DNA of 64,000 nucleotides, from the NCBI RefSeq assembly GCF_907164915.1, contig NC_061862.1, positions 64,420,228-64,484,227 on the forward strand, read 5' to 3'. Source of the stretch: Impatiens glandulifera. Its lineage: Eukaryota > Streptophyta > Magnoliopsida > Ericales > Balsaminaceae. Below the pieces are notes generated by a model, which saw only the letters and a program-made list of their open reading frames with translations, was not told the origin of the DNA and did not search any database. Positions 2,381 to 64,000 of the stretch are shown here, in pieces. The position numbers were made by a program, and so were the translations under genes. The stretch's first letter is position 1, and every line of letters starts with the position of its first letter.

Positions 2381-2999
2381 AGAGTCATTTTAACTTCTTA
2401 TAATCCTATGTGGCAAACTAGAGAGGTTGCAAATATGTGAACTTGAGGGGGTGATATTACTATACCACATTCAATACCATTTCTTGTACTTTTCAAAAAT
2501 AACATTAAAAATTATTATTATTATTTTTTATTTATTTATAATGTATAATTTATTTGTTTTTTAAAGAGTATTACAATAAATGAAACAATATAAACGTTGT
2601 ACATAAGATCTGCACCCGAACTTGAGATAGATACATTAAAATTCAGAATAAGAGGGTGTGATAAATCATGACTACTTTACCATCATTTAGACATATAAAA
2701 AAAAAGTTAGCTTCAACCTCAAAACACAAAGAGGAGGCAATAAAAAATATAAATTACAATGTCACAAATTTGACCATTTGAAAATTATATTTTGTTTCTA
2801 AGGATTTATTCTTCTTAGTGTTATTATAAATGATCTTGTTTAGGGTACTTTATTAAGATTTAAATTATTTTATCGGTGTAGTTTAATTTAGTGGTTTAGA
2901 ATTAAAAAAAATCATTTTTTTACACGAAGAGGTTGAGTACTTGAGTGTTCGGCTCTTCTTAACCAGCAGAACCGACATCGAAGGGCCCTAGTTGAATTA

Positions 3000-3403
3000 T
3001 ATTTTTTAAATTTATATGATATATTAAAAATATATAATAATTATGTATTCAACCTAACAAAAAGTAATTTAGTCTAATTGATTAAATATTTTAACATCGT
3101 CATTAACGTAATAGGTTCAAAAAGGGGTTAAGGGAGGTGAGAAACTCTAGACACTGCCTAATTCACCTTGAAATGTTGCACCTTTAAAAATGCATAGATT
3201 ATTTGGATAAAAAAAGATAAATGTATAATGAAAAAATAATTTAAAAATATGGGAAGTTATTTTAATATATTAATTATTGGTTTAAATAATAGAATTGATG
3301 ATAAAATATTTATTTATTGCATATTCAATTTAAATGATCTAAATCAAATTAGGCCTAAAAAAATATATTTTTTTTTTCATTTCGAAAACTTGACAAATTT
3401 GTA
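3000..3403. mobile_element. 404-bp insertion private to the left arm
   Basis: The right arm lacks this segment: there the flanks join directly across a single GTTGAATTA. Here the segment is bordered by GTTGAATTA (2991-2999) and GTTGTATTA (3404-3412), a near-perfect 9-bp target duplication. I see no clear terminal inverted repeats and no coding. The stretch around 3070-3125 loosely resembles Pol III box A and box B, so a SINE is possible. The 9-bp duplication would also suit a Mutator-like MITE. The class is unresolved. Confidence 0.65.
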
Positions 3404-4975
3404 GTTGTATTAAGAATTCGAAAACAAAATGTAGTTAAAAAATTGTTTATATTGTTATGATATCAAGTTTATTTTATTTTACATAAATGATGAAAAAGAT
3501 GATCAACCAGTTTCAGAAAATGGACGCTCCAGACTCTGAACAACATCTAGGGTTACAATATACATAGCTTTCTTCACGAATTAGTGATTTTTCTGGCTAA
3601 CTATCACGGGCAAGGGTCCTGGTCTCTTTCTCTGTCTGTATATATATTTGCTTGCATTTTCAATGTGTGGTCTAGCTCCAAGAGTTCTTTGGTGCTATAA
3701 AAATGTTCTATCAATCAATGTTTTCATATTTGTTCTAATGTCTTTGTTCTGATTTGATGTGGTACATATTGTATACAATGATTACCGGTGAGTTTTCTTC
3801 ATTCCTCTCTCTATATCTGTTTCTTCAGCTCGTAGAACTACAGTCTATATGCATTTAGTTTTCATTTGAGTTTCTTGAATGTTGATTAGTAGGCTTGTAG
3901 TATCATCGGAAGACTTACATGAGGTCTAAATGTTGAGTTACTTATGCCATGTTTTAGGTCTGCATTAATAGATGCCTAAAGAACATATATACCAGATGAC
4001 TGTGTTTCATATTGTAAAATTATTCAATGACTTCCCATTAATATCCTAAATGGATATTCTTATTGGGTACCATTCTGGATGGATCATAAAGCTTTGGGCA
4101 ATATGCAATTGGAGTTCTTATATGTCAAATAGCTCAAATTTGGTGAAACTGTTGAATTCATCTAAAACGTGCAATGTGTTCCATCCATATGAACCTACAA
4201 TAAACTATTACAACCTCTTGTTTTTTTTGGGTTTAGGGATTTACATTAAGGTATGGTTTCACACGATGATGTTTTGACTGAATCACACGTTTTATTTTTC
4301 TCTTCTTATGCTCAAAGAGAATGTCTTCTCGCCTTAAATAATGTGGCACACAAATGATATATGATTAGCTAATGATTTCATATTATTAGGGTGTTGGATA
4401 AAAATGAATATTAAGTGTTGAATACTAAATTTTAAGTAAATAATTAGTTAAGTGTATGAAAATAAGATGCTGAATAAGCAATATAATTATTTGAATTTTA
4501 AGTAGTGCTTGATATGGAAGCTGGTTTGATAAGATGTAAGGCTAATGTAGGGAAAATATTTTAAAACTATTTTACCCTTCAAGAGATGTAATTTGCTTAA
4601 TTTCATTTCCGTTTGGTTGGAGTGAAAGTGAAGAACTTACCGCAACTCCTGGAATTAATAAGAAAACAAACTTTAAGGTTTAAAGTTATCTTTTGTACGC
4701 TCTTCTCACGCTTACTAAAAATTAAGTGATTTTTAGTATCAATTATCAAATAAACTTAATTCAAAACTGATAAGTTGTGATGCATTATGTGTCACACTCT
4801 TGTTAATTAGTAGTAATACATTTAATTGTGCCTCTTTTCTTCCTTGGTTTGTATGGATCATGTTTTATGGTAATGTAGAGTTTTAATATTTATAGTGTGC
4901 ACATTCTAGACTATTAATTCGTTTGGTGTGAAGAAAGACGATGTCTTCCTTGCTGATGTTAATACACAACTGAAG

Positions 4976-5476
4976 TGTTGGGTTTTGCAACAGCAAAAAT
5001 ATGGATCTTTTCGAAATCAAACCTGTAGCAAATTAGTTTCCAAATCGTCTATGACGATAATCAGATTACGAAGACTGAAATAGCACAAAGCAATAAACGA
5101 CAACACAATATACGTGGTTCGGTCAAAATCGACCTACGTCCACGGGAGGGATAAGTTTCACTAAATCAAAGAAATGTCAATAGTAGAAACTTACATGCCC
5201 TGCTCTCAAATGAAAGAAGTGATTACACTAGGAATGATTAGAATACTCCACAATCAAAAGCTCCCCCAATCTCTCTCTCTGGATCAGCCAAAGAACAAGA
5301 AGAAGAAGAAAACCAGAAAACCCTAGATCTGTAATTCACTCTCTCTCAACCTTGCTCTGTTATGAGAAAAATACCCAAAAAAAAGTATTTATACTCTAAC
5401 CCGTTTTCATAAAAGAAAACCCTGACCCGTTTACCCAGAATTTAAAACCCGCCCACATTGGCAAGGAACACCAACA
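4976..5476 (-). repeat. Copia-1 3' LTR (downstream LTR on the minus strand)
   Basis: This is a 501-bp LTR with TG...CA ends, next to the purine-rich tract at 5477-5490. It is nearly identical to 9690-10190. Confidence 0.96.
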
Positions 5477-5522
5477 ATTCTCCCCCTTCCGAGCCATGGG
5501 AGAATGTTGCTATAAACATTCA

Positions 5523-8500
5523 TCATCGTGACGCTTCTGCTAGAACCATTCCAGCTTTGGCACAACATATCTCATGCTTTCCTCTTGGCAAGCCCTTTGT
5601 CATCATATCTGACCCGTTCTCATCTGTATGCACTTTCTCCAAGTATAACTCCTTCTTCTCGAGCACTTCACGGATCCAATGGTACCTTCTTTAGATGTGT
5701 TTTGAACATGAATGGAAACTTGGATTCTTGCTCACATGTATAGCACTTTGTGAGTCACTAAACACCACAAACCCGTCTTGTGCAATGCTTATTTCTTTCA
5801 ACAATTCTTTCATCCATCTCATTTCCTTACAACATTCAGTAATGGCAATATATTCAGCTTCTGTAGTAGACAAAGCAACACATTTCTGTAGACGAGACTT
5901 CCATGATACAGCTTCTCCTCCAAAAGTAAACAAATACCCTGAAGTTGATCTCATTGTGTCAATATCACCACTCATATCTGAATCAGAAAACCCTTCAACA
6001 TGTGGCTTTCCAGTACCATAACACATAGCGTATTTGGAGGTCCCTCGAAGATATCTCATTAGCCACTTAACCACTTCCTAGTGTGTCTTACCAGGATTTG
6101 AAAGGAAACGACTAAGTACTCCAACCGCATGAGCTATATCCGGTATTGTACAAATCATTGCATACATCAGACTGTCTATTGCTGAAGCATATGGAACAAT
6201 GCACATTTCTTGTCTTTCCTCTTCATCCTTGGGAGACATTGTCTTGTTTATTTTCAAGTGTGTAGCCAATGGACAAGCAACTGGCTTTGCCTTGTCCATA
6301 CAGAATCGTTTTAGAATCTTCTCAATATCTCTCTCTTGAGATAACCATAGCCTTTTCTTCACCCGATCACGAATGAACTGCATTCCAAGAATTTGTCTTG
6401 CTTGACCCAAGTCTTTCATCTCAAAAGACTTAGCCAAATCCTTTTTCAACTTGGCAATCTTGAGCTTGTCTCTCCCAACAATCAGCATGTCATCAACATA
6501 TAGAAGAAGTATAATAAAATCATTAGAAGCAAACTTTTGTACAAAGACATAGTGATCTGTATACGTCTTCATGTAACCATGGATGATCATGAACGACTCA
6601 AACTTAAGATACCATTGCCTTGGTGCTTGCTTCAAACCGTACAGACTTTTGAAAAGTTTGCACACCTTGTTTTCCTCACCTTTCTTATTATAACCTTCAG
6701 GTTGCTCCATATAAACATCTTCATCCAAATCATCATGGAGAAATGCAGTCTTGACATCAAGTTGTTCAACCTCAAGATCCATACAAGCAGCTAGACTTAA
6801 CACCACCCAGATAGAAGTCATCTTCACTACCGGTGAGAAAATCTCATCATAATCGATTCCATGCCTCTGGCAAAAACCTTTGACAACCAGCCTAGCCTTG
6901 TATCTTGTCTTGCTATCATCACCTTCTTGCTTGATCTTGTACACCCATTTATTTTGTAATACTTTTCTATTCTCTGGTCTTTCAACTAGATCATATGTGC
7001 CATTTTTCAGCAATGATTTCATCTCTTCATCTATGGAAGCTAGCCATTCTTTCTTATGAGCATCCTCAAGAGCCTCCTTATAGCATATAGGCTCCCCACA
7101 ATCAGTTAGAAGGACATACTCTGTAGTAGGGTACTTAGAACTTAATCTTTTCTCCCTAGTAGACCTCCTAAGTACCTCTGTTTGTTGATTATGTTGATTT
7201 ACATCTTCTTGCTGAACTTTAAAATCAGCCTCAATATTATCACCAAGATCAGTTGTTGTATCATTTTCATGGCCTATAGCTTGACCCTGAGGAACATCAT
7301 CATCACTATCTGAGTCTGAAGCTACATGTGGCCTTGTCTCCTCAACATCATGAGACATCTCAAGACCAGAAAGATCACGTATGTATGCATCAAGTTTTTC
7401 ACCATCTTCAAAATTCTCAATAGTCTGTTCTTCAAGGAATACCACATCTCGGCTTCTCAAAACCTTCTTATCAACTGGGTCATAACACCTGCATCCCCAC
7501 TTTTCATCACCATACCCCAAAAATATGCATTGCCTAGTGTTTGCATCTAACTTAGACCTCTCATCTTTTGGAATATGCACAAAAGCTCTGCAACCAAAAA
7601 CACATAAATAGTCATAATTAACATCTTTACCTGACCAGACGCTCTTATGCACACTTATTATTCAATGGTTTGGAGGGAGAACAGTTAATCACATATACTG
7701 TAGTGCTCATGGCTTCAGCCCAAAAATTCTTAGCCAACCTGGCATGGGAGAGCATACTCCTCATCCGTTCCAACATTGTTCTGTTCATCCTCAATGCCAC
7801 ACCATTTTGTTGTGGAGTCTTGGGCATAGTCTGTTCATGTCGAATACCCTACTCTTTGAAATAATCATCAAATGAGCCTATGTAGTCTCCCTCGTTATCT
7901 GACCGCACCCTCATCAGTTTTCTTCCTGTCTCTCTTTCAACCAGCTTGTGAAAGACCTCAAACCTTACTGCAACCTCATCCTTGGACTTTATAGCATAGG
8001 CCCAAACCTTCCTAGATGCATCATCTATGAAGGTTACAAAATAGGAAGCACCACCTATGGATTTAATCTTCATAGGACCACAAACATCTATATGGACCAG
8101 TTCAAAAACATTCTTTTTCAGTTCCACTTTTGACTTACTGTAGGAGACTCTGTTCTGCTTACCCTTCAAGTAATGCTCAAAATTTTCAAGATGAGCATCC
8201 TTGAGATTCAGCAGCTCATTCCTCTTGATCAAAATATTCAGCCCCTTTTCACTAATGTGACATAGTCTCTTGTGCCACAACTCAGAGGATGACTCCATCA
8301 CAACAGAATATGCCACATCATAGACAATTTTCAAATTTGTCTTGTATAAGGAACAACATTTCTTACATCGTGCAATAACCAATGAACCCTTACTTAGCTT
8401 CCATGCTCCACCACTGAAAACATTATGGTAGCCTCCATCATCGAGCTTACCTGCTGAAATCAAATTCATTCTCAAATCAGGAACATGTCTTACATCTCTC

Positions 8501-8905
8501 AATGTCATGAAGAAGCCCATGTTTGTCTCGACTCTAACATCACCAAAACCAACTATCTTGGACACACCACTGTTACCCATGCAAACCTCACCATAATCAC
8601 CAACTTTGTAGGACTGGAAATAACCTTTGTGTGGAGTAATATGGAATGAGGCACCTGTGTCAACAATCCATGTTGTTTCATTTAAAGATGTGCTAAAACA
8701 TGAGTCTTGACAGTTAGAAGCATATGTCAGTTCACCATCTGAAGCATAAGGAAATGTATCTGCACTCTCTTCTTTCTTTTCTCTGGGCTTCACTGTACCC
8801 TTCGCTTTATCATTTTTAAATTTCCAGCACTCGTTTTTCCAGTGACCCATTTTGCTACAGTAATGGCAAGCACCATCTTTCTTTGGAGCTCTAGACTTCT
8901 TCTAG
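5523..8905 (-). pseudogene. Copia-1 pol (protease, integrase, RT, RNase H), interrupted
   Basis: On the minus strand the order is as follows. The CCHC knuckle is at about 8830-8872. The protease motif WIVDTGASFHITP is near 8650. Integrase has LWHKRLCHISEKG, an HIDVCGP aspartate motif and RSDNEGDY, where the usual Gly-Gly is changed, then TPQQNGVA. Reverse transcriptase follows (6078-7652) with DVKTAFLH and YVDDMLIVG, and RNase H (DSDMSGD, STTEAEYIA, FSDSQSAI) to about 5523. Reading is broken by an in-frame TAG just after the YFKE residues (about 7846-7848), a frameshift near 7650, a TAG at 6075-6077 and a TAA at about 5688-5690. Copies with these breaks could only move with help from another element. 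Confidence 0.93.
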
Positions 8906-9551
8906 ACTTTCCCCTGCTCGAACCACTTCTATTATCCTTTGATCTTCCTCTATCAGCCACTAACATATCAGACTTAGAGGGTTTATCCCCCTTTCGATTC
9001 TCCTCATCAAGTAAGGAACTAGTGACAAATGCCATGTTGACTTTACCATTTGGTGCAGAGTTGCTGAGAGTGATAATAAGTGTCTCCCAACTTGCAGGCA
9101 AAGATCCAAGGACTAAAAGTGCTTGCACCTCATCATCAAAGTTTATCTTCATACTACTCAACTGATTCAAAATATTTTGAAATTCATTCAAGTGCTCAGC
9201 AATTGATTTATTATCAATATACTTCAGATTCACTAGCCTTCGTACCAGTGCTGCTTTATTCCCTACTGACCTCCCAGCATAGAGAGCTTCAAGTTTGCTC
9301 CACACACCATACGCCGTAGTCTCATTCTCAACATGGTGCACAACATTTACACCAACCCAGGAACGAATAAAGCTGCAGGCCTTTCTATCTATCTTTTTCC
9401 AATCAGCCTCTTTTGTAGTCTCAGGTCTAACACCTTCATTTTCAATTGCTTCATTCAAATCATCTGAAACTAACAGATCACTAATCATCAGTTTCCATTG
9501 CCTGTAGTTTGTACCATTCAGACTCACCATATCATGTTTAGATTTCCCCAT
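8906..9551 (-). pseudogene. Copia-1 gag (capsid-like) region
   Basis: The likely start is the ATG at 9551, shortly after the primer-binding site, giving MGKSKHDMVSLNGTNYRQW, the usual N-terminus of copia gag proteins of the UBN2 type. The domain forms the virus-like particle that packages element RNA. The frame runs to about 8910, where a frameshift next to a stop codon separates it from the zinc knuckle and pol, which continue in another frame. A longer reading frame starting inside the LTR is not the natural start. Confidence 0.85.
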
Positions 9552-9674
9552 TATTACTGCCTTAACAACTGACAAAAAAACCCAGCAAAGAAACCAATTG
9601 ATCTCTTCTATGAATTTCGCCAAATAACCAGCAGAGCACTCTGCTCCAATGTCAAAACAGATAACCAACCAATA

Positions 9675-9688
9675 CTGCTCTGATACCA
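9675..9688 (-). other. Copia-1 primer-binding site
   Basis: On the minus strand this reads TGGTATCAGAGCAG, complementary to the 3' end of plant initiator methionine tRNA. It lies one base inside the 5' LTR. Confidence 0.93.
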
Positions 9689-9689
9689 C

Positions 9690-10190
9690 TGTTGGATTTT
9701 GCAACAGCAAAACTATGGATCTTTTCGAAATCAAACCTGTAACAAATCAGTTTCCAAATCGTCTATGACGACAAACAGATTACGAAGACTGAAATAGCAC
9801 AAAGCAATAAACGACAACACAATATACGTGGTTCGGTCAAAATCGACCTACGTCCACGGGAGGGATAAGTTTTACTAAATCAAAGAAATGTCAATAGTAG
9901 AAACTTACATGCCCTGCTCTCAAATAAAAGAAGTGATTACACTAGGAATGATTAGAATACTCCACAATCAAAAGCTCCCCCAATCTCTCTCTCTGGATCA
10001 GCCAAAGAACAAGAAGAAGAAGAAAACCAGAAAACCCTAGATTTGTAATTCACTCTCTCTCAACCTTGCTCTGTTATGAGAAAAATACCCAAAAAAAAGT
10101 ATTTATACTCTAACCCGTTTTCATAAAAGAAAACCCTGACCCGTTTACCCAGAATTTAAAACCCGCCCACATTGGCAAGGAACACCAACA
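9690..10190 (-). repeat. Copia-1 5' LTR (upstream LTR on the minus strand)
   Basis: This is a 501-bp LTR with TG...CA ends, followed on the minus strand by the primer-binding site and preceded by the TGAAG target duplication. About 9 differences from the partner LTR suggest an insertion younger than the inverted repeat. Confidence 0.96.
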
Positions 10191-12778: not shown

Positions 12779-12813
<35 letters not shown>

Positions 12814-19127: not shown

Positions 19128-19541
19128 TACCTTAATACATCCTGCATCATCTCCAAATGCAATCATTGATTCAGTTAAGTTAACAATTCGATTAACAGAA
19201 TCCTTAATATAAAGAAAAATCAAATGTCAATTCCTCAAAGACATATGAAAATACAGGTAAATGAAAATATATAAACCCACCCATGAGCATCTTATAAACG
19301 AGCAATGGCTGTTCCAGTTTCCACATCTGTTGCGAGAATTGAGCAATCTGGCAAACCAGTCACGATTGTTAGTTCAACATAAGAAAACAGATTAAAAAAC
19401 TTAAAAATCATATTCATAAATAAACCTTATAAAATCTAACAACAGAATGTTCAATAGCCAAATCTTACCGCGATCATCGTTTACAAAACAAGGTGTCCAA
19501 CATGATTCAGTATGTGCTTTGACTTCCAGCCATCTTAAGTG
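19128..19541 (-). pseudogene. WDR55-like WD40 gene fragment
   Basis: Three short exon remnants match the plant WD-repeat protein WDR55, which acts in the nucleus/nucleolus and with DDB1 E3 ligases. On the minus strand they are RWLEVKAHTESCWTPCFVN (about 19483-19541), DCSILATDVETGTAIARL followed by an in-frame TAA (about 19292-19351), and VNRIVNLTESMIAFGDDAG (about 19136-19196). The order agrees with the protein. Copia-3 is inserted at the upstream edge of the first remnant (target duplication TTAAG). The stop and the missing remainder make it a pseudogene. The family call rests on short but characteristic matches. Confidence 0.75.
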
Positions 19542-19776
19542 TTGTGCGGAATGCAAGAAAGTGATAAACAATGAAGTGTGGAAAAAACAGATAAAGAGAG
19601 ATATTTTCTTGTCAAAGATAAAGATGAAACAAATTACAACTAATGAAAAAGAATTGCAGCTATCTAAAGTCAGAAAGAAAGAAAATCGTAAAACACCTAA
19701 CTTAATAAGCATAACTGTGGAATAAATGTGATGTAACTGAAATTATTAATTCCTATACTAAAGGCAAAATGTTACA
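19540..19776 (-). repeat. Copia-3 3' LTR
   Basis: This is a 237-bp terminal repeat (TG...CA), next to the purine-rich tract at 19777-19786. Confidence 0.95.
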
Positions 19777-19824
19777 AATCTCCACCTTGCCTTAGTATCA
19801 CCCAACAAGAAAAGCCTTATCAGG

Positions 19825-22593
19825 CTATTTCCAACTGTCAACATTTAGCAAATCCAAACAATGAGTGAATTTTCTAAGTGGAACCGGCTTCGTGAACATG
19901 TCAGCAAGATTATGATGTGTGCTGATCTTCTTCACTTTGATTCTCTTCTCAGTACGAAGAAAATGATAACGAACATCAATATGTTTGGTTCTATCATGGT
20001 GCACTTGATCTTTGGCCAAATAAATAGCACTTAAACTATCACAAAAAATAATTGCCTGATCATGATGGATACCAAGGTCACTGATTAATCCTTTCAACCA
20101 TATACCTTCCTTGGTTGCTTCAGTTAGCGCCATATACTCAGCCTCGGTAGTGGACAACGTCACCGTCGACTGTAATGTTGCCTTCCAACTAACCACAGAG
20201 TCACCAAGGGTGTAAACATAACCAGTCATTGATCTTCTACCATCGATATCTGCAGCATAATCTGAGTCAGAATAACAAGTTACGAGACACTGGTTATTAC
20301 TCCCATAAATGAGACCAACATCGGATGTGTCTCTCAGATAGCAAAATATTCTCTTTACTGCTTGCCAGTGTTCCTTACCAGGTCGAGACATAAACCTGCT
20401 AACAACACTAACTGAATACGCAATATCAGGTCTAGTGCATACCATGACATACATTAAACTACCCATCACACTAGCATACGGTACATTAGACATGTATAAC
20501 TTCTTAGCTTCAGACTGGGGTGCGAATGCAGACAAATGATCAGTAACAGCTGCAGGAGTATTGTGAGCCTTTGTTGTACTCATCCCAAAACGAGACAACA
20601 TTTTCAAAATATAACTCTTCTGTGAAAGAAATAGCTTCTTTTGAACTCGATCTCTTACTATTTCCATGCCTAGAATTTTTCATGCTTCACCTAGATCTTT
20701 CATATCAAACTCAGAACTAAGAAGGTCTTTCAGCTTTTGAATCTCCGACATCTTCTTGGCTGTGATTAACATGTCGTCTACATACAGGACTAAATAAATC
20801 AAAGAACCATCACTGACTTTGTTGTGATAGACACAACAATCATATGCACTCCTATTGTAACCATGTTCAATAATGAAATTGTCAAACCGCTTATACCATT
20901 GTCGAGGAGACTATTTAAGTCCATACTAAGACTTCTTCAGACTACAAACATGTGTTTCCTTACCAGGAACAAGAAATCCTTCAGGATGACTCACCAGTAT
21001 ATCCTCTTCAATCTCACCATGTAAGAAAGTCGTCTTCACGTCTAATTGCTTGAGTTCCAGATCCTGATGTGCTACTATAGCTAGTAGTACCCTGATAGAA
21101 GTGTGTCGGACTACAGGTGAGAATATCTCATTGTAGTCTACGCCTTCCTTTTGACTGAATCCCTTTACAACTAATCGTGCTTTATATCTGGTCCCTTCAG
21201 CACTAGAGGTTCCATCTTTCCTTTTGAAAATCCATTTACACCCAATGACTCTTCTTCCCTTAGGTAAAGTAACCAGCTCCCATGTATTATTCTTGTGAAG
21301 TGATTCCATCTCCTCACACATGGCAGCAATCCATTGCGCAGAATCAGCACCATTAACAGCTTCATTGTAAGAAGATGGCTCGTTATGTATGACATCTTCA
21401 GCTACCTGAAGTGCATAACTTACCATTTCTTCAGTATCATTTATAGAGGGACTGATTGTCCTACTTCCAGGACCAGTTGAGATCTTTCTTCTCTCGATTG
21501 AATGAATTAACCTATCAGAAGCTTTAATTTGCCTTCTAGGTCGTGTTGCAATGTCAGATTGACTTTCAGGTGCTCCAAATTGATAAACTTCCTCAGATGG
21601 CTTATCAGTATCATGTGTCATGTCAGTTGTCCCTTGAATTGGAGCCACCTCAAGCTCCACATGTTTCTCGGTATTATTATTTTCTCCAGAAAGTGATGGC
21701 TTGATAGAGGAGTTAAGTATAAACTTCTCATTAAAGGTGACATCCCTGCTGAGGATTACTCTACCTTCAGAAGATGACCAGATTCTATATCCCTTGACTC
21801 CATCTCCATAGCCCATGAAAATACCCTGTTTTTCCCTTGGTTCCAACTTTCATTCATTAACATGATAGTAAGATGTGCACCCAAAGACTTTCAAATGAGA
21901 ATAATCAACGACATTACCAGACCATACCTCGTTAGGGATTCTGCAATCAATCCCAGTGTGTGGTGCACGATTTATCAGATAGCAAGCTGTTAAGACAGCC
22001 TCGCTCCAGTACTTTCTAGTCAATCCCGCATTAGAGAACATGCTTCTAACTCTCTCTAACAATGTTTGATTCACCCTTTCTGCTACACCATTCTGCTGTG
22101 GTGTACCTCGGACAGTGTGATGTCTTGCAATCCCCATATCCTTGTAGAACTCATTAAACTCAGATGAACAGAATTCAAGTCCATTATCTGTTCGCAGCCT
22201 CTTAACCTTCTTTCCAGTTTGATTCTCCACCAGTGCCTTCCAATGTTTGAAGGTCTTAAATACCTCACTCTTATGTCTTAGAAGATACAACCAGGTCATC
22301 CTTGAGTAATCATCTATGAATGTTACAAAATAGCTATAACCTCCTATACCTTCAACTTGAGCAGGACCCCAGCAATCAGAGTGGATATAATCTAGTGTGC
22401 CCTTAGTTTTGTGAACTCCCTTACTAAACTTGCGGCGATGTTTTTTCCCGAAAATGCAGTGTTCACACAACTCAAGGTTGGTAACCTTGTGGCCAGATAG
22501 AAGATCTCGTTTGGACAAAATTTGCATCCCCCTCTCCCCCATATGTCCAAGTCGCATATGCCACAACTTGGTTACATCAGGGTGCCGATTCAC
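19825..22593 (-). pseudogene. Copia-3 pol (integrase, RT, RNase H), interrupted
   Basis: Integrase (21850-22593) shows the zinc-binding region (LWHMRLGHM ... CEHCIFGK), the Asp motif in YIHSDCWGP, TDNGLEF and TPQQNGVAERVNQTL. Reverse transcriptase follows with [35 protein letters not shown] and YVDDMLIT near 20780. RNase H (19825-20667) has [22 protein letters not shown] and [12 protein letters not shown], and the normal C-terminal ADMFTKPV region is kept. In-frame stops are TGA at 21847-21849, TAG at 20926-20928, TAG at 20911-20913 and TGA at 20680-20682. A frameshift lies between protease and integrase near 22630. Confidence 0.93.
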
Positions 22594-22622
22594 AGATTTG
22601 GATGCGACCGCAGTGGAACCTG

Positions 22623-23837
22623 TCAGCGTCTTACCTTATAGTATATACAAGGTATTCTGTTTAAACCTTTCAGTATTATTTTTGAACCTTTACTGATGCA
22701 CAATGTTCCTTCTTCACCGCTAAACTTGAAACCTTTAGCATCTAAAATGCCTAAAGATATTAAGTTCTTCTTCAGTTGAGGAACATGTCGAACGCCAGTT
22801 AGGGTCCGTATCTTACCATCATCAGTCAGAATTTTGATAGTCCCAATACCCACCGTTTTACATATGGCATCATTTCCCATGACAACGTTTCCACCATCAT
22901 AATCTTCATAGGTATCGAACCATTCTTTGTTCGGACTCATATGATATGAACACCCTGAATCCAACACCCACGTATCAATATGGTGTAGAGAAGCGTTAGC
23001 TACAAGGGCAATGTCCTCCTCCGAGTCGGTGTCTTTGTCTTCATGTGCTATAGCATCCGTAGAATATTTGCCCCTTTTCTTAGGACAATTATTCTTCCAA
23101 TGACTAGGTTCTTTACAGTAATTGCAGATGTCTTTAGCACTAGGACCCTTAGCTTTATATTTTTGATCATTCTTCTTTCCAGGCCCTTTGTAGTTGACTG
23201 TGCTGACAATCAACCCAGATGCTTGACTGTCTACAATTTCACCGCTCGCCTTATGACGCAGTTCTCTAGTATGAAGTGCTGACCGAACTTCCTCTAGAGT
23301 TATAGAGTCTTTACCCACAATGAACGATTGAACAAAATTTTCAAACGAGTTGGGTAAAGATACCAACAGAATTAATGCAGCATCTTCATCTTCGATCTTA
23401 ACATCTATATTTCTCAATTCAAGTAATATAGTGTTTAACTTATCAAGATGTTCACGAAGAGACTTACCTTCAAGCATACGAAGACTGAACAGACGTTGCT
23501 TCAATAACAACTTGTTAGTCAGTGACTTTGTCATGTACAAAGCCTCTAACTTCGACCACAGACCGATTGCAGTATCTTCATCTGATACCTCAGTAATTAC
23601 TTCATCAGCCAGACAAAGTAAAATTGTTGAGTGCGCCTTCTCTTCCAAGACCTCAAGCTCAGCAGTGATTTTACCAGAGGAAGACTCCTTTGCAGGACCT
23701 GCAACTATCTTCGCCTTTTCCTTCGACAATGGTGCCCAGACGCCTTGTTGTTTAAGCAAGGCTCGCATTTTGATCTGCCATAGACCAAAACTGTTTTGCC
23801 CTTTGAATTTTTCGATTTTCAGATTCATTGAAGACAT
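22623..23837 (-). pseudogene. Copia-3 gag and protease
   Basis: The frame is open from the ATG at 23837 (MSSMNLKIEKFKGQNSFGLW) to about 22623. It contains a UBN2-type capsid region, a CCHC zinc knuckle CNYCKEPSHWKNNC near 23120, and the aspartic protease motif WVLDSGCSYHMSP near 22960 with the usual copia region after it (VRHVPQLKKNLISLG). This part has no internal stop and is the best-preserved piece of the element. It loses frame with integrase at its end. A frame extending upstream to 23972 enters the primer-binding site and LTR and is not natural. Confidence 0.88.
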
Positions 23838-23880
23838 TCTCCCGCCATAAAACAAAAGTGATAATCTGATCGGATCTAAC

Positions 23881-23894
23881 CCGCTCTGATACCA
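23881..23894 (-). other. Copia-3 primer-binding site
   Basis: TGGTATCAGAGCGG on the minus strand, of the initiator-Met tRNA type, two bases inside the 5' LTR. Confidence 0.92.
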
Positions 23895-23896
23895 AT

Positions 23897-24132
23897 TGTT
23901 GTGCGAAATGCAAGAAAGTGATAAACAATGAAGTGTGGAAAAAACAGATGAAGAGAGATATTTTCTTGTCAAAGATAAAGATGAAACAAATTACAACTAA
24001 TGAAAAAGAATTGCAGCTATCTAAAGTCAGAAAGAAAGAAAACGTAAAACACCTAACTTAATAAGCATAACTGTGGAATAAATGTGATGTAACTGAAATT
24101 ATTAATTCCTATACCAAAGGCAAAATGTTACA
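23897..24132 (-). repeat. Copia-3 5' LTR
   Basis: This is a 236-bp terminal repeat (TG...CA), bordered by target duplication TTAAG at 24133-24137. Confidence 0.95.
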
Positions 24133-52786: not shown

Positions 52787-52832
<46 letters not shown>

Positions 52833-52886
52833 GATGCTTAATTTTTAAAGTGTCCGGATTGTCAGGTCGAGAGTTGTGGTTAATTT

Positions 52887-52959
<73 letters not shown>

Positions 52960-53078: not shown

Positions 53079-53184
53079 TTTGAATAATGTTACAAAAAAA
53101 TCTTATACCAAACGAATATAAAAACTTTAAGCTTTGACGATTTTTTATTGGGATCATAATTGTGATAAAATACCAACTTTCAAA
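53079..53184. other. 106-bp VDAC intron segment between the two Helitron-like elements
   Basis: This matches the left arm at 10703-10814 in reverse complement. It proves that two separate insertions, not one, separate the halves of the intron. Confidence 0.85.
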
Positions 53185-53494
53185 TCTATATATATATATA
53201 ATGATGCTTAATTTTTAAAGTGTCCGGATTGTCGGGTCGATAATTGTGGTTAATTTGGATATTTATGTGAGAGTAAATGGATACTTGGGTCGGACTGTGG
53301 GTTAACCCGCCCATAAACTTAAAACAGTTAAAAATAAAATTAAAAATGATATTTGTATGTTTCGAACTTACAACCTAACAAAACAAGTACAACCCTTTAA
53401 CCAACTAAACTAACAACACTTTATATTGAAGATTCAACACCAAATTTGATGAACGCGAGACATTTTAACAATAAAAGTTCAAATTTTTAACTAA

Positions 53495-53528
<34 letters not shown>

Positions 53529-55793: not shown

Positions 55794-55970
55794 ACTTAAT
55801 ATTCATTTTTATCCAACACCCTAATAATATGAAATCATTAGCTAATCATATATCATTTGTGTGCCACATTATTTAAGGCTGAATACTTAATATTCATTTT
55901 TATCCAACACCCTAATAATATGAAATCATTAGCTAATCATATATCATTTGTGTGCCACATTATTTAAGGC
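55794..55970. repeat. 86-bp tandem duplication in the right arm
   Basis: 55794-55879 is repeated at 55885-55970 almost without change. The left arm has a single copy (around 4335-4420), so the duplication is recent and private to this arm. Confidence 0.9.
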
Positions 55971-56794
55971 GAGAAGACATTCTCTTTGAGCATAAGAAGA
56001 GAAAAATAAAACGTGTGATTCAGTCAAAACATCATTGTGTACAACCATACCTTAATGTAAAGCCCTAAACCCAAAAAAACAAGAGGTTGTAATAGTTTAT
56101 TGTAGTTTCATATGGATGGAACACATTGCACATTTTAGCTGAATTCAACCGTACTTTCACCAAATTTGAGCTATTTGACATATAAGAACTCCAATTGCAT
56201 ATTGCCCAAAGCTTTATGATCCATCCATAATGGTACCCAATAAGCATATCCATTTAGGATATTAATGGGAAGTCATTGAATAATTTTACAATATGAAACA
56301 CAGTCATCTGGTATGTTCTTTAGGCATCTATTAATGCAGACCTAAAACATGGCATAAGTAACTCAACATATAGACCTCATGTAAGTCTTCCGATGATACT
56401 ACAAGCCTACAATAGATAGTAATCAACATTCATGAAACTCAAATGAAAACTAAATGCTACGTAGTTCTACGATCTGAAGAATCAGATATATAGAGAGGAA
56501 TGAAGAAAACTCTACTCCAGTTGGGGAGTAGGTGGTGATGGTGAATTTGTGGTCATTCCGGTAATCATTGTATACAATATGTACCACATCAAATCAGAAC
56601 AAAGACATTAGAACAAATATGAAAACATTGATTGATTGAACATTTTTATAGCACCAAAGAACTCTTGGAGCTAGACCACACATAGAAAATGGAAGCAAAT
56701 ATATATACAGATAGAGAAAGAGACGAGGACCCTTGCCCGTGATAGTTGTTGGAATTAAACTAATTCCATTAATTAAATGGAAATGATATTTGGG

Positions 56795-57075
56795 CTAATG
56801 AAATTCACACCAAATTCAAATGTGAATTAAGTGTGAAATTAATCCAAATGAAATTCACATGAAATTCAAATGTGAATTAAAGTGAAATTAATCCAAATGA
56901 AATTCACATGAAATTCAAATGTGAATTAAAGTGAAATTAATCCAAATGAAATTCACATGAAATTCAAATGTGAATTAAAGTGAAATTAATCCAAATGAAA
57001 TTCACATGAAATTCAAATGTGAATTAAGGTGAAATTTCATCCAAATGAAATTCACATCAAATTCATTGTGAATTA
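56795..57075 (+). repeat. 49-bp tandem repeats in the 5' LTR of copia-2
   Basis: CCAAATGAAATTCACATG starts recur at 56844, 56893, 56942, 56991 and 57041, after a diverged first unit. Each unit contains the near-palindrome AATTCAAATGTGAATT. The array lies upstream of the TATA-like box, where LTR enhancers sit. Confidence 0.9.
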
Positions 57076-57280
57076 AATTTGTTAATTGTTACAATTAACA
57101 TAAATGTCTTGAGTGAGGCAATTAACAAATGATGTTAATTGCCATTGTAACTACAAAATATTTATTGTAGGATGTAACTTGCAAAGATAATGAAAAGGCA
57201 AGCAACGATAACCGTTGGATGAATGGATGATGGATTAGTGACCGTTGGATTAAATAATTGATTATGAGTTTAATTTTCAA

Positions 57281-57290
57281 CTATAAATAT
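57281..57290 (+). promoter_or_regulatory. TATA-like box in copia-2 5' LTR
   Basis: CTATAAATAT followed by CCCTTCACATTG, in the expected place for the LTR promoter. The same box is at 62759-62768 in the 3' LTR. Confidence 0.65.
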
Positions 57291-57785
57291 CCCTTCACAT
57301 TGTATTCTTCTCTATACATTATCTTATCACTTCTCTCTCTAGAATTATAAAGTCTTTCCTTGTTCTTGTGAGTTTTCTTGTGAGTGTTCTTGTGAGCGTT
57401 CTTCGAGTTTCTTGACTCGATCATTTCTGTGCGAAACCCGGTGATTGTGATTCAGGTACTTTTGTCTAGTTCGCTGTTGTAGTGGTTTTTCTGTGCTAAA
57501 TCATTGCAGGTTCCGTTGTACCCTGGGAAGCAGCCGCCGACGAAACTCTCCAGCACAAACGGGAGACGGTGAAACTGTTTTAAGGGAACTGTGTTTCACA
57601 GGCCTCGGAGCAAACGAGAAGACATTTTTACATAATCTATTGTATCTGTTGTATTATCCTTTTATTGTATTCATATATTATTTACGTGTAATTTTTTACG
57701 AGATAATATTACCAACAATCTTAAAACAGTTAGCAAATATTACTTATCTCAGATTCTTACACGTTTCTGGTTTTGTGATTCAGAA

Positions 57786-60700
57786 ATGACTACCGAAACA
57801 CCTGCTTCTAACATGAGGATGCCAGTTCCAGCTAACCATCTGGATAAGCCAGAAAAGTTTGATGGATCAAACTTTAAGAGATGGCAACAAAAGATGTTCT
57901 TCTACCTTACGACCTTAAGTCTTGCGCGATTCCTCACGGAGGATCCTCCCACTCCCAAAATCGATGAGCCAAACGTGGCTTCATCGTCGGATGCAAACGT
58001 GCATCCGAAAGTTGATGTGCAAGCGGCTTCGGCCATTGATGCTTGGCACCATTCAGATTTCTTATGTAGAAATTACGTGTTGAATGGCTTATCAGATTCA
58101 TTGTACAATGTGTACAGTGAAAAGAATACGGCCAAAGAACTATGGCAATCTCTTGAACGTAAGTACAAAACAGAAGATGCAGGTGCAAAAAAGTTTATGG
58201 TCGGTCGATTTTTGGACTACAAAATGGTAGATTCAAGACCGGTCATTAAACAAGTTCAAGAGATTCAAGTTATTTTGCACGAAATTCATGCTGAGGGCAT
58301 GATTTTGGGAGAAACCTTCCAAGTGGCTGCTATTATTGAGAAGTTGCCACCGTCTTGGAACGATTTCAAGAACTACCTTAAGCATAAGCGAAAGGAGATG
58401 AACGTAGAAGAATTGGTGATTCGTCTACGCATTGAAGAGGAAAATAAAAGCGCCTCAAAGAAATACTTTAGTCAACATGTGGCTAAAGTAAATGTGGTTG
58501 AGCATAGTAAAGACAAGAAGAAACACAATTCTTTTGTCAAAAACCGGAGCCTTAATCCTAAAGGAGGAATCTCTAAGAAGTTCACTGGCAAGTGTTTCAA
58601 TTGCAATGGCATGGGCCATAGATCTTCCGAGTGCAAGAAGCCGAGAAGAGTTCGAGAGGCTAACTTGACTCAAGGATTATCGGACATGGATCTATGTGCG
58701 ATGATATCTGAGGTTAACTTGGTGGGGTCTAATCCACGAGAGTGGTGGGTTGACACAGGAGCTACAAGACATGTTTGCTCCAACAAAGATGTATTTTCAA
58801 GTCTCGAAGAAGTGAAGAATGGTGAAAAGCTGTTCATGGGGAATTCTGCCACTTCTGACATACAAGGTGAAGGAAAAGTGGTGTTAAGGTTGTCTTCAGG
58901 GAAAGATTTAACATTGACTAATGTGTTGTATGTTCCGGAGATTCGGAAAAATTTGATATCCGGATCTCTTCTAAGTAAGCATGGTTTTAGAATTGTGATT
59001 GAGTCGGATAAAATTATTTTATCCAAAGGTGGAATGTTTGTAGGTAGAGGTTATGCTACTGATGGGCTTTTTAAGCTAAATGTAATGGCAGTTAAGCCAA
59101 GAATGAATGAAAAGAATAAGTCTTCTATTTATTTGTTGGAGTCCTCCATTTTATGGCATGGTAGACTAGGTCATATTAATTATGATTCGATGCATCGATT
59201 AATAAAATTGAATAGTATACCTACATTCGAAATTAATAAGAAACACAAGTGTGAAATTTGTGTTGAAGCGAAATTGACGAGATCATCCTTTCGAAACGTT
59301 GAAAGAAGTAATAGAACGCTTGATTTAATTCATACAGATGTGTGTGATTTAAAAGGAACACCAACACGTGGTGGAGGAAAATATTTCATTACTTTTATTG
59401 ATGATAACACAAAATATTGTTATGTGTATATTCTTAAAAGTAAAGATGAAGCCATAGAAAAATTCACTCTTTATAAAAATGAGGTTGAAAACCAACTTGG
59501 TAAAAAGATCAAGGTGTTAAGAAGTGATAGAGGAGGTGAATATGAATCACCTTTTGCCGAGCTATGTGCTCAACATGGTATAATCCATGAGACGACAGCA
59601 CCTTATTCTCCTCAGCAAAATGGTACGGCTGAGAGAAAAAATAAAACATTAAAAGAAATGATGAATTCACTTCTATTAAGTTCTGGTCTACCACATAACA
59701 TGTGGGGAGAAGCTATTTTGACAGCTAATTACCTTTTAAATAAGGTTCCACGAAAGAAGCTAGATAAGAGTCCATATGAATTATGGCATGAAAGAAAACC
59801 ATCATATGAATACTTACGAATGTGGGGGTGTCTAGCTAAGGTAGCCGTACCATTACCTAAAAAGGTGAAAGTTGGACCAAAAACTGTTGATTGTATATTT
59901 ATTGGATATGCACATAACAGTAGTGCTTATCGTTTTCTTGTATTTAAATCGGACATTCCGGATATTCATAAGAATACGATAATGGAATCGAGAAATGCAT
60001 CGTTCTTTGATCATGTACTTCCATATAAGTCTAATGAAGAACAACGTTCTCCAAAAAGATTTCTTGAACTAGATGAACAAGAAAAGGAGAATGAAGTTGA
60101 GGTTGAACTTAGACGAAGTAAACGAGCTAGAACCGAAAAATCATTTGGTCCAGATTTTATTACTTTCATGATGGAAAGTGAACCTCAAACGTATAATGAG
60201 GCAATTAACTCGTCTGAAGGGCCTCAATGGAAAGAGGCAATTAATAGTGAGATAGAATCTATCTTGCAAAACCATACATGGGAACTAGTGGATCTTCCTC
60301 CGGGAAATAAACCACTAGGTTGCCGATGGATTTTCAAAAGGAAAATGAAAGCTGATGGATCAATTGATAAATATAAGGCAAGACTGGTGGTAAAAGGATA
60401 TCGCCAACGAGAAGGTCTTGATTATTTTGATACATATTCTCCAGTTACGAGAATAACTTCTATTCGATTGATTCTTGCGATTGCTTCTTTGCGCAATCTA
60501 GAAGTTCATCAAATGGACGTAAAAACAGCTTTCTTAAATGGAGACTTTGAAGAAGAAATTTACATAGATCAACCTCAAGGGTTTTCTTCTCAAGGGCAAG
60601 AAAATAAAGTTTGTAAATTAGTTAAGTCATTGTATGGCTTAAAACAAGCTCCAAAACAATGGCATGAGAAATTTGATCATGCTATGATCTCAAGTGGATT

Positions 60701-61520
60701 TAAGATCAATGAATGTGATAAATGTATTTATATTAAAGACACAAAAAATGGTTACGTCATTTTATGTCTTTATGTAGATGACATACTTATCATTGGAAGT
60801 GATGATAAAATGGTTAAATCCACTAAAGATATGTTAAATTCAAAATTTGACATGAAAGATATGGGATTGGCTGATGTGATTCTTGGAATCAAAGTGATTA
60901 GAACATCGGAAGGGATAGTTCTAAGTCAGTCACATTATGTGGATAAAATCCTCGAAAAATTTAACAATGATGATTCTGCATTGGCTAAGACTCCGATAGA
61001 TACGAGTCAACATCTATCTAAAAATCGCGGAGAGAGTGTATCTCAATTAGAATATTCTCGAATAATTGGGAGTCTAATGTACTTAATGAGTTGTACAAGA
61101 CCAGATATAGCCTATGTAGTAAGCAAACTAAGTAGATACACGAGTAATCCGGGTAATAATCATTGGAAAGCCATTGTACGATTACTTAGGTATTTAAGAA
61201 ATACTCGTGATTATGGTCTGCACTACACGAGACATCCTGCTGTTATCGAAGGGTACACTGATGCTAATTGGATTTCAGATATGAAAGACTCTAAGTCAAC
61301 AAGTGGATATGTATTTACACTTGGAGGTGCAGCTATATCTTGGAAATCTTCTAAACAAACTGTTATTGCAAGATCCACGATGGAATCTGAATTTATAGCT
61401 CTTGACAAATGTGGTGAAGAAGCTGAATGGCTACGTCTATTCTTAGAAGATATTCCAATATGGTCTAAGCCCGTACCAGCAATTTCTATTCATTGTGATA
61501 GTCAATCTGCGATTGGATGA
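57786..61520 (+). CDS. Copia-2 Gag-Pol polyprotein (open for 1244 codons, stop in RNase H)
   Basis: This single frame encodes capsid, protease, integrase, reverse transcriptase and RNase H. The start [19 protein letters not shown] is the first ATG after the LTR. The copia gag segment [18 protein letters not shown] is at about residues 24-41. The zinc knuckle [14 protein letters not shown] is near 272. Protease [12 protein letters not shown] is near 320. Integrase zinc-binding region ([10 protein letters not shown] ... CEICVEAK) is near 455-495, its catalytic motifs are [14 protein letters not shown] and [16 protein letters not shown] has [17 protein letters not shown] and [11 protein letters not shown]. 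RNase H has [16 protein letters not shown] and HCDSQSAIG. The frame ends at TGA 61518-61520 inside RNase H. The family-like tail continues in frame after it and then suffers a one-base deletion near 61622. All earlier catalytic motifs look intact. Confidence 0.95.
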
Positions 61521-61724
61521 GCTAAGAGTCATATGTATAATGGTAAGTCTAGACATATACGTCGTAGACATAATACCATTAGACAATTACTCTCTACTGG
61601 AATTATCTCAATTGATTACGTAAATCAAAAGATAATATTGCGGATCCGCTAACCAAAGGGTTAAATAGAGAGTTGGTGTTAAAGTCCTCACAAGGAATGG
61701 GACTTAAGCCTACAATAAGTTAGT
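61521..61724 (+). pseudogene. Copia-2 detached C-terminal tail of RNase H
   Basis: After the premature TGA, the same frame continues with KSHMYNGKSRHIRRRHNTI, typical of the end of copia RNase H. A one-base loss near 61622 then shifts the frame of the usual ADPLTKG end. The tail ends near 61722. Confidence 0.85.
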
Positions 61725-62224
61725 ATGAAGGGAAACCCAACCTATGATGACTGGAGATCCCAAGAACTAGGTTCAATGGGACAACCTAATTGTACTAAAC
61801 TTGGTAAATTGCTATGGGTAAAAATCCTACGATAAAATAGCATTTCGGGAAAGGATAAGCACACAGGCTTTTAATGATTCTTTATGAATAAAGAGATCAC
61901 CTATGTGAGAGAGAAGTGGGGCCGCTTCGAAAGAATTGCACGGCTCAATTCTAGACCCTCTCACTGAACCAGGCGAGTGTTCATGGCCAAAACGAACACA
62001 ATCATGAGAACTGACATGTATCAGGAAGAATTTTATGTGAAAGTGTGTAATCGTTTACACAAAAGGCAGAATAGTTCAAGGACATCGAGTCTACTAATTG
62101 GCTAGTAAAGTTATATACTTTCATAAGGGAATGTTCAAAGGGTTACACCTACCTATCCTATGTAAAATTCAACTGTTGAACCTTTCACCGGGTTAATCTT
62201 TCAATTTCCATTAATGTGGGGGAT
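61725..62224 (+). other. Copia-2 3' untranslated region with purine-rich tract
   Basis: About 500 bases without coding, ending in the purine-rich TGTGGGGGAT (62215-62224) that primes plus-strand DNA next to the 3' LTR. Confidence 0.75.
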
Positions 62225-63195
62225 TGTTGGAATTAAACTAATTCCATTAATTAAATGGAAATGATATTTGGGCTAATGAAATTCACACCAAATTCAAATG
62301 TGAATTAAGTGTGAAATTAATCCAAATGAAATTCACATGAAATTCAAATGTGAATTAAAGTGAAATTAATCCAAATGAAATTCACATGAAATTCAAATGT
62401 GAATTAAAGTGAAATTAATCCAAATGAAATTCACATAAAATTCAAATGTGAATTAAAGTGAAATTAATCCAAATGAAATTCACATGAAATTCAAATGTGA
62501 ATTAAGGTGAAATTTCATCCAAATGAAATTCACATCAAATTCATTGTGAATTAAATTTGTTAATTGTTACAATTAACATAAATGTCTTGAATGAGGCAAT
62601 TAACAAATGATGTTAATTGCCATTGTAACTACAAAATATTTATTGTAGGATGTAACTTGCAAAGATAATGAAAAGGCAAGCAACGATAACCGTTGGATGA
62701 ATGGATGATGGATTAGTGACCGTTTGATTAAATAATTGATTATGAGTTTAATTTTCAACTATAAATATCCCTTCACATTGTATTCTTCTCTATACATTAT
62801 CTTATCACTTCTCTCTCTAGAATTATAAAGTATTTCCTTGTTCTTGTGAGTTTTCTTGTGAGTGTTCTTGTGAGCGTTCTTCGAGTTTCTTGACTCGATC
62901 ATTTCTGTGCGAAAACCGGTGATTGTGATTCAGGTACTTTTGTCTAGTTCGCTGTTGTAGTGGTTTTTCTGTGCTAAATCATTGCAGGTTCCGTTGTACC
63001 CTGGGAAGCAGCCACCGACGAAACTCTCCATCACAAACGGGAGACGGTGAAACTGTTTTAAGGGAACTGTGTTTCACAGGCCTCGGAGCAAACGAGAAGA
63101 CATTTTTACATAATCTATTGTATCTGTTGTATTATCCTTTTATTGTATTCATATATTATTTACGTGTAATTTTTTACGAGATAATATTACCAACA
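62225..63195 (+). repeat. Copia-2 3' LTR
   Basis: 971 bp, the same length and same number of 49-bp units as the 5' LTR. Differences are single bases only, such as CACATAAAATTC in one repeat unit. Confidence 0.95.
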
Positions 63196-63200
63196 ATAGT

Positions 63201-64000
63201 TAGCCAGAAAAATCACTAATTCTTGAAGAAAGCTATGTATATTGTAACCCTAGATGTTGTTCAGAGTCTGGAGCGTCCATTTTCTGAAACTGGTTGATCA
63301 TCTTTTTCATCATTTATGTAAAATAAAATAAAATTGATATCATAACAATATAAACAATTTTTTAACTACATTTTGTTTTCGAATTCTTAATTCAACCTCA
63401 ACCTGGGTCGGTTCTGCTGGTTAAGAAGAGCCGAACACTCAAGTACTCAACCTCTTCGTGTAAAAAAATGACTTTTTAATTTTAAATCATTAAATTAAAC
63501 TACACCGATAAAATAATTTAAATCTTAATAAAGTACACTAAACAAGATCATTTATAATAACACTAAGAAGAATAAATCCTTAGTAAAAAAATATAATTTT
63601 CAAATGGTCAAATTTGTGACATTGTAATTTATATTTTTTATTTCCTCCTCTTTGTGTCTTTTGAGGTTGAAGCTAATTTTTTTTTATATATGTCTAAATG
63701 ATGGTAAAGTAGTCATGATTTATCATACCCTCTTATTCTGAATTTTGATGTGTCTATCTTAAGTTCGGGTGCAGATCTTATGTACAACTTTCATATTGTT
63801 TCATTTATTGTAATACTCTTTAAAAACAAATAAATTATACATTATAAATAAATAAAAAATAATAATAATAATTTTTAATGTTAATTTTGAAAAGTACAGG
63901 AAATGGTATTGAATGTGGTATAGTAATATCACCCCCTCAAGTTCACATATTTGCAACCTCTCTAGTTTGTCACATAGGATTATAAGAGGTTAAAATGACT
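63201..64000. other. Distal part of right arm, upstream of VDAC exon 1
   Basis: No gene. It is the reverse complement of 2381-3598 without the 404-bp insert of the left arm. It probably contains the upstream region of the VDAC gene from which the pseudogene derives. Confidence 0.8.

Follow-up and report, generated by a model that had tools for sequence, protein, structure and literature searches.

What structure gives a 64,000-nucleotide stretch of Impatiens glandulifera DNA, hereafter the window, two long inverted arms that match imperfectly and continue past its ends? The initial annotation took them for the arms of a single eroded palindrome of more than 60 kb. We placed the window in its own genome, on contig C1, and numbered positions outside it as below 1 (left) or above 64000 (right). 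The analysis established the geometry of the locus, how many copies the assembly contains, which insertions are private to single copies and that their divergence is a mosaic. We conclude that the window probably lies within a young segmental-duplication complex that includes a palindrome of ~140-150 kb, P1, and whose copies seem to have overwritten stretches of one another recently by gene conversion.

The inverted arms and their private insertions

Arms previously placed at 2381-11683 and 64000-50716 were borne out by self-BLAST, which aligned 2383-11677 with 64000-50721 at 90-98.5% reverse-complement identity in the following blocks.

2383-11677, + strand: arm A (copy U1), split by LTR element 1; pairing continues leftward to at least -1295
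50721-64000, - strand: arm B (copy U2), split by LTR element 2 and two tandem arrays
2383-2976/64000-63407: A/B inverted block, 95.8%
3404-3604/63396-63196: A/B inverted block, 98.5%
3599-4419/56747-55882: A/B inverted block, 89.9%
4331-4975/55879-55240: A/B inverted block, 95.5%
10191-10712/55244-54716: A/B inverted block, 92.8%
10814-11677/51630-50721: A/B inverted block, 90.5%

The top inverted score was 1276 bits, whereas 10 dinucleotide-shuffled versions of the window never exceeded 46.4 bits. Two mismatch counts in the initial annotation proved exact: 2 in 48 (2383-2430 against 64000-63953) and 10 in 164 (10191-10354 against 55244-55081). The repeat does run beyond the window, as had been proposed, with -1295 to 17 pairing with 65373-64076 at 94.9% and weaker blocks out to ~-13.9/74 kb. 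The suggestion that 1-1300 might recur inverted beyond 64000 holds for 1-17, directly past the edge, and fails for 18-2312, which has no match there. Positions 1-432 recur inverted far outside the window, at 137536-135445; 1281-2260 has a same-orientation counterpart at 82458-83453 and a partial one at -20768.

The window also contains three retroelements.

4976-10190, - strand: LTR element 1, Copia type; LTRs 4976-5476 and 9690-10190; K2P 1.82%; target duplication TGAAG
56747-63195, + strand: LTR element 2, Copia type; LTRs ~971 bp; K2P 0.72%; target duplication ATAGT
19540-24132, - strand: LTR element 3, Copia type; short LTRs of ~240 bp; K2P 1.70%; target duplication TTAAG

Each has two LTRs, a 5-bp target duplication and Copia-type Pfam domains: RVT_2, SH3, Pol_BBD, gag_pre-integrs and rve in element 1; SH3, rve and RVT_2 in element 2 (two pieces searched); and Retrotran_gag_2 and Pol_BBD only in element 3, where the piece 19828-20679 gave no Pfam match. 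The pair 16464-17883/24482-25939 was considered as the LTRs of an element there and rejected, the element being 19540-24132. The insertion site of element 1 is uninterrupted in copies U0, U2, U3, U4 and U5, and that of element 2 in U0, U1 and U3; element 3 has an empty site, with a single TTAAG, at its mirror place near 105190. The LTR divergences of these private insertions (0.72, 1.70 and 1.82%) are lower than the divergence of the arms in the two stretches measured outside the near-identical zone described below.

A local duplication complex with a larger palindrome

At least seven local copies of the arm unit, in both orientations, lie within C1:64.40-65.19 Mb. In bins of 10 kb, local copies cover 38-100% of the sequence from -20 to 150 kb and 0-27% from -60 to -20 kb. 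The copy comparison took matches of at least 150 bits, the local self-match listings had length floors of 400/600 and 300/500 bases, and inverted chaining excluded matches shorter than 120 bases and simple self-palindromes.

The best inverted chain is P1, with 15 blocks and 36.4 kb aligned (36,411 columns) at 97.39% ungapped identity. It runs from -1715/137536 to 71805/74525, which gives it an extent of -1.7 to 137.5 kb, or possibly -8.8 to 143 kb, about an axis at ~74.2 kb (near C1:64,494,440), 10 kb to the right of the window. An extra inverted pair beside the axis (73713-74072/74726-74350) leaves a spacer of 277 bp (74073-74349), which contains a piece of NPF exon 4. P1 has two features of large palindromes of the willow W and mammalian Y type, namely arms of more than ~10 kb at high identity and a short axial spacer. 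A chain block at -43.7 kb was left out of P1 because it is isolated and its left-hand sequence has further matches at several places within 151-167 kb.

40904-55879: longest single inverted P1 block, ~15 kb, against 100579-85594 at 98.1%
12024-25939: outer part of the P1 left arm; mirror 118239-103364; 3.2-4.5% substitution in blocks

The P1 arms align only partly (36.4 kb of ~73 kb on the left). Their divergence was 1.99 and 3.84% in two stretches measured outside the near-identical zone, and it does not rise smoothly outward, being 7-8% in the 4-11 kb blocks, 2.2% at 11.7 kb (a block of 156 columns) and 4.4% at -1.7 to 0.4 kb; thus, one founding event is not required. The chain that holds A and B ranks fifth by score among five successively extracted inverted chains, and arm B also forms part of the P1 left arm, where its mirror copy is U3, at 82.5-90.9 kb. 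Arms A and B are a secondary inverted pair within the larger palindromic complex, not the arms of a palindrome of their own.

At this locus, exon fragments of NPF (NRT1/PTR) have been multiplied together with a dispersed repeat, R, which occurs on many contigs, and a cullin fragment is also present.

34995-40040, - strand: tandem array, ~1.9 kb period, of repeat R and a fragment of NPF exon 3
42060-47151, - strand: second copy of the R/NPF array, with exon 3 at 45587-46072 carrying three stops
48590-49694, - strand: cullin fragment, PF00888, as two open pieces (profile 389-484 and 54-154)
51634-54357: two tandem arrays, units of ~286 and 316-326 bp

One NPF exon 3 within the window is open and two are broken; the first array holds the open one (36541-37029) and a broken one (38456-38945). 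The middle of the PF00888 profile is unmatched in the cullin fragment, which sits inside a near-identical tract at 43356-49825. The arrays at 51634-54357 are large in U2 and U3 and absent or nearly so at the equivalent place in A. A larger tandem pair, 31819-40907/40911-48020, has its joint at 40904. Searches of the window gave no Rfam match at the gathering score and no tRNA.

Near-identical tracts among the copies

Divergence between the mirror arms of P1 is only 0.27% over 40.9-51.6 kb, against 2.7% at 54.4-55.9 kb. The three parts of this low-divergence zone hold 13, 1 and 15 mismatches, and the middle part is the following tract.

43356-49825: near-identical tract, 1 substitution against its inverted mirror at 98120-91654

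The longest span with one mismatch covers 6466 columns, whereas the longest among 2000 random placements reached 2407, with the tandem arrays (51600-54400) excluded from both the mismatch count and the placements. A second case involves U0 and U3, which lie 103 kb apart in the same orientation and have 2.56 kb in common with no substitution and two 1-bp indels, flanked by 25/809 and 31/741 differences. Here 90 consecutive polymorphic sites agree, a run reached in none of 5000 permutations, and the two-against-two site patterns comprise 24 that join U0 with U3, followed by 11 that join U2 with U3, and none of the third kind. When the right-hand segment was considered by itself, the run shared by U2 and U3 was not significant (2793 of 5000 permutations), since the two agree at 54 of 57 sites. 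For pairs involving A, the longest agreeing runs in the left segment were 6, 4 and 6, which is nothing unusual, suggesting that A and B themselves have not exchanged sequence recently.

Judged from the mosaic of divergence in the assembly, the near-identical tracts appear to be products of gene conversion, which is the best reading of the patchy divergence among the copies. The U0/U3 tract is the clearest conversion-like case, and the mirror arms have probably exchanged sequence in the same way.

For the mirror arms, a possible though less likely alternative is a single copying event, very recent and with one end displaced, that took the mirror arm as its source and also made the tandem pair. 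The low-divergence zone begins at the tandem joint, 40904, and ends at the tandem arrays at 51.6 kb; because both edges fall at structural features, copying with a displaced end explains the zone nearly as well. It would also account for left copy 1 lying ~4% from its mirror and copy 2 only ~0-0.5%. However, 49826-51599 is intermediate, with 15 mismatches, and collinear homology resumes beyond the arrays at 2-3%, which places the inner end within older homology. Moreover, such copying leaves unexplained the U0/U3 tract, which is diverged on both sides.

If repeated duplication with gene conversion is the correct reading, the following sequence of events may be proposed. A local block comprising arm sequence, NPF-pseudogene arrays and the cullin fragment would have been duplicated repeatedly in both orientations. 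An inverted duplication would have produced P1 (~140-150 kb), perhaps through fold-back or template switching in the repeat-rich NPF array, and the remaining copies would form secondary inverted pairs, A/B among them. Since then, retroelements inserting into individual copies, deletions and slippage in the arrays would have eroded the symmetry. Through homologous recombination, stretches of one copy would have been replaced by those of another, in the case of two same-orientation copies over a distance of 103 kb; the mirror arms would probably have exchanged stretches too.

Other origins of the inverted structure

Given that copy number and identical tracts both rest on the assembly, we considered whether the contig was mirrored or whether polishing with mis-mapped reads forced a false identity. 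A repeat cluster whose copies hardly differ over 2.6-6.5 kb is a setting in which polishing errors would be expected. However, there is not one N in 230 kb of C1, and the arms differ by 2-8% elsewhere and carry private retroelements with clean target duplications. The initial annotation had held, on account of different insertions in the arms, that a trivial assembly duplication is inadequate; the separate LTR element and 5-bp target duplication in each arm confirm the premise, and together with the 2-8% divergence outside the near-identical tracts they uphold the conclusion. A genome search with the arm piece 10814-11677, in which 40 of 366 candidates were scored, found matches on C1-C9 only among the 44 listed. 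This evidence argues strongly against a plainly mirrored contig and less firmly against false identity inside the tracts; overall, we consider an artefact improbable.

That A and B form the arms of a single eroded palindrome with its centre in the window is more improbable still. The A/B blocks are indeed collinear, inverted and extend past the window, but in a tree of seven copies arm B (U2) is sister to U3 with 100% bootstrap, as U4 is to U5, and arm A (U1) falls elsewhere, in a position with 65% support only. The alignment for this tree joins five segments mixed by conversion, so the tree is a summary and not a history. Together with an axis outside the window, at ~74.2 kb, the sister relationship of B and U3 contradicts the centred palindrome. 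The blocks regarded as its nested inner part lie here.

29273-32965: short repeats at NPF array edges; partners 47399-48450

The matches themselves exist, 29273-29765 with 48450-47858 at 73% and 32717-32965 with 47643-47399 at 82%. They are not specific, since they pair equally well elsewhere: 32717-32965 with 40529-40288 (83%) and 29644-29765 with 40879-40745 (83%), both inverted. Because these blocks are short repeats of that kind and the sequence at 12-26 kb pairs with 103-118 kb, what was proposed as the interior of the palindrome drops out.

Finally, we give hardly any credence to the idea that the arms are two insertions, in opposite orientations, of a transposable element family. Copies of repeat R from the NPF arrays do occur on many contigs, and ~240 bp of 10814-11677 finds diverged relatives on contigs other than C1 (at most 253 bases, 70-78%, among the 44 listed matches). 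In that same search, with 40 of 366 candidates scored, the nine strongest matches to this one arm piece (>400 bits) are nevertheless confined to C1:64.40-65.80 Mb and no long match is listed elsewhere; the copies also retain their neighbours (arm, cullin fragment, NPF array) like a segmental duplication.

Relation to known palindromes

In the literature consulted, the closest case appears to be the W chromosome of Salix purpurea, for which the palindrome account describes W.P1 and W.P2 within ~200 kb, with a 20-kb sequence common to four arms and a 'pre-arm' (PMC7023750). According to that account, the region is female-specific, the four arms are >99% alike and the rest of W.P2 96-99%, arm genes are expressed, retroelements occur in one arm only, and a 3-kb region without paralogous differences was read as gene conversion (PMC7023750). 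Multiple arms, one-arm retroelements and a difference-free kilobase tract are the points of likeness to the present locus; in contrast, the NPF and cullin pieces examined here are mostly broken, and divergence outside the tracts is higher.

Palindromes of the mammalian Y and X, as described, likewise combine large inverted arms with arm-to-arm conversion (PMC7023750, PMC5704215, PMC8981503), and those on the X indicate that suppressed recombination is not required (PMC5704215, PMC8981503). Compared with them, the plant arms reported here are smaller and far less uniform (~1-8% apart) and carry mostly broken gene pieces. In plant resistance-gene clusters, local gene-family duplicates are described as exchanging sequence (PMC3113787, PMC6771003), whereas exchange at this locus would span kilobases of mostly non-coding or pseudogene DNA in a palindromic layout.

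In the literature consulted, large plant palindromes with conversion have been described on sex chromosomes (PMC7023750). Our data raise the tentative possibility, which we hold to be somewhat less than even, that an ordinary plant chromosome that is not sex-linked carries a palindrome of ~150 kb whose neutral pseudogene DNA is still being overwritten, both between mirror arms and between non-mirror copies 100 kb apart. If so, plant palindromes could undergo conversion without being sex-linked and without selection to keep their genes intact. With its mostly broken genes, datable private insertions and sharply bounded identical tract, the locus makes it possible to ask whether structure alone yields conversion. 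Should the chromosome instead be sex-linked, it would provide another example of convergence of the willow kind.

Structure of the palindrome

We analysed 64.36-64.59 Mb of contig C1 (NC_061862.1; 230 kb, 0 N) together with pieces at 64.60, 65.19 and 65.79 Mb. Coordinates are window-based, the window being C1:64420228-64484227 and the position on C1 64420227 + coordinate. The initial annotation described two inverted arms, delimited here as A (2383-11677) and B (64000-50721). These are present as it stated (1276 bits, versus at most 46.4 bits in 10 shuffles), and our recount of their mismatches gave exactly the same values. They form the core of the fifth inverted chain, not of the best one. 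The best chain, the palindrome P1, comprises 15 blocks and 36,411 columns at 97.39% ungapped identity, extends from -1715/137536 to 71805/74525, and is carried by weaker blocks to -8767/143025. Between the pair adjoining its axis (~74.2 kb; 73713-74072 versus 74726-74350) lies a spacer of 277 bp, overlapping a broken exon 4 fragment of an NRT1/PTR transporter family (NPF) gene. Substitution between the P1 arms is 1.2-2.7% in blocks at 40.9-72 kb, 3.2-4.5% at 12-26 kb and 7-8% at 4-11 kb; a short block at 11.7 kb shows 2.2%, and the value at -1.7..0.4 kb is 4.4%. A tandem repeat at 16085-16461 has a 142-bp unit in 2.7 copies (89% matches).

Tandem arrays with a period of ~1.9 kb consist of an NPF exon 3 fragment (PF00854) and repeat R, which is ~1.2 kb long, is present on many contigs and has inverted-looking ends, AGAGCTGGGCA/TGCCCAGCTCT, as read from the alignment. 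R, represented in the window by 45981-47151 and other array units, forms adjacent pairs of opposite orientation on several of these contigs. A 3.1-kb R/NPF array piece on C9 (C9:20561001-20570000, local 3418-6526) is 94% alike, and its exon 3 has one stop. NPF2.10 is the best solved relative of the left-flank NPF copy, ABC-transporter pieces lie to the left of the complex, and a leucine-rich-repeat gene piece lies in the right arm of P1 (109280-109663).

Gene pieces in the window
36541-37029: NPF exon 3 copy, open
38456-38945: NPF exon 3 copy, broken
45587-46072: NPF exon 3 copy, broken
48590-49694: cullin fragment, two pieces

Given the short spacer and the array at the axis, we infer that P1 originated in an inverted duplication that formed within a repeat-rich array, through either fold-back or template switching. 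The copies have probably acted as repair templates for each other since.

Copies of the unit

The arm piece 10814-11677 occurs at no fewer than seven places, with fragments as far as 65.98 Mb.

Copies of the duplicated unit
U0: -20.8 to -15.4 kb, plus strand
U1 (arm A): in the window, plus strand
U2 (arm B): in the window, minus strand
U3: 82.5-90.9 kb, plus strand
U4: 130-127 kb, minus strand
U5: 64.60 Mb, plus strand
U6: 65.19 Mb, plus strand

In the copy tree, B and U3 are sisters, as are U4 and U5 (bootstrap 100% each), and the position of A is supported at 65% only. Local copies cover 38-100% of 10-kb bins from -20 to 150 kb and just 0-27% of those between -60 and -20 kb. Towards the right the complex fades, with 46 and 29% coverage in the last two bins read.

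Order and age of events

Three Copia-type LTR elements lie in the window.

Copia-type elements
4976..10190: element 1, in arm A, target duplication TGAAG
56747..63195: element 2, in arm B, target duplication ATAGT
19540..24132: element 3

LTR divergence (K2P) is 1.82% for element 1, 0.72% for element 2 and 1.70% for element 3, compared with P1 arm divergences of 3.84% at 24.1-25.9 kb and 1.99% at 64.5-65.9 kb. The mirror site of element 3 (~105190) is empty, with a single TTAAG. Judged by these sequence comparisons, the inverted duplication is older than all three insertions. If 1.3e-8 substitutions accumulate per site each year, the ages would come to roughly 0.8-1.5 million years for the P1 arms, which are minima given conversion between copies, and to roughly 0.3-0.7 million years for the private insertions. 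The right flank of the complex also carries a second, partial copy of element 1 with 93% identity (148332-151834, matching 4976-8480).

Probable exchange between copies

U0 and U3 share an orientation and lie 103 kb apart. We observed 0 substitutions and two 1-bp indels between them over -19871..-17307/83504-86068, flanked by differences at 25/809 sites on the left and 31/741 on the right. In a four-copy alignment, they agree at 90 consecutive polymorphic sites (0/5000 permutations), and the two-against-two site patterns run, in order, 24 U0+U3 and then 11 U2+U3, with 0 of the third kind. Pairs involving A have no comparable runs of agreement in this alignment. The U0/U3 tract appears to be the cleanest case of exchange between copies.

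With tandem arrays left out, mirror-arm mismatches of P1 across 40904-55879 number 13 in 40904-43355, 1 in 43356-49825, 15 in 49826-51599 and 37 in 54401-55879; inside the arrays, divergence is 1.6-9.7% per 500-base window. The longest one-mismatch span is 6466 columns, whereas 2000 random placements gave at most 2407. By this span and the mismatch distribution, the near-identical zone (40.9-51.6 kb), in which arm divergence is 0.51% at 40.9-43.5 kb, is clearly younger than the remainder of P1. Its outer edge is a tandem-duplication joint and its inner edge tandem arrays. The mirror-arm event may have been a copying step in which one end was displaced; such a step would account for the tandem pair 31819-40907/40911-48020 as well. 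Exchange between the copies would require no selection for intact genes, since the near-identical stretch contains broken genes.

Comparison with known palindromes

The willow W palindromes, as described in PMC7023750, are very like this locus in having shared arms, a pre-arm and private retroelements, and also a short difference-free region between arms. The willow palindromes lie in a female-specific region and carry expressed genes; the present comparison covers one species, and the NPF and cullin pieces examined are mostly broken. The same paper places mammalian X palindromes outside non-recombining DNA, so conversion is already on record where recombination is not suppressed. C1 (162 Mb) is 2.4 times the next largest among C2-C9 in an assembly of 654 Mb and 1110 contigs (C1-C9: 162, 68, 66, 62, 54, 56, 51, 48 and 39 Mb; C10-C12: <0.1 Mb); its size could reflect a fusion of chromosomes or a sex chromosome that has become enlarged. 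Any interest of the locus would lie in its chromosomal context and putative neutrality.
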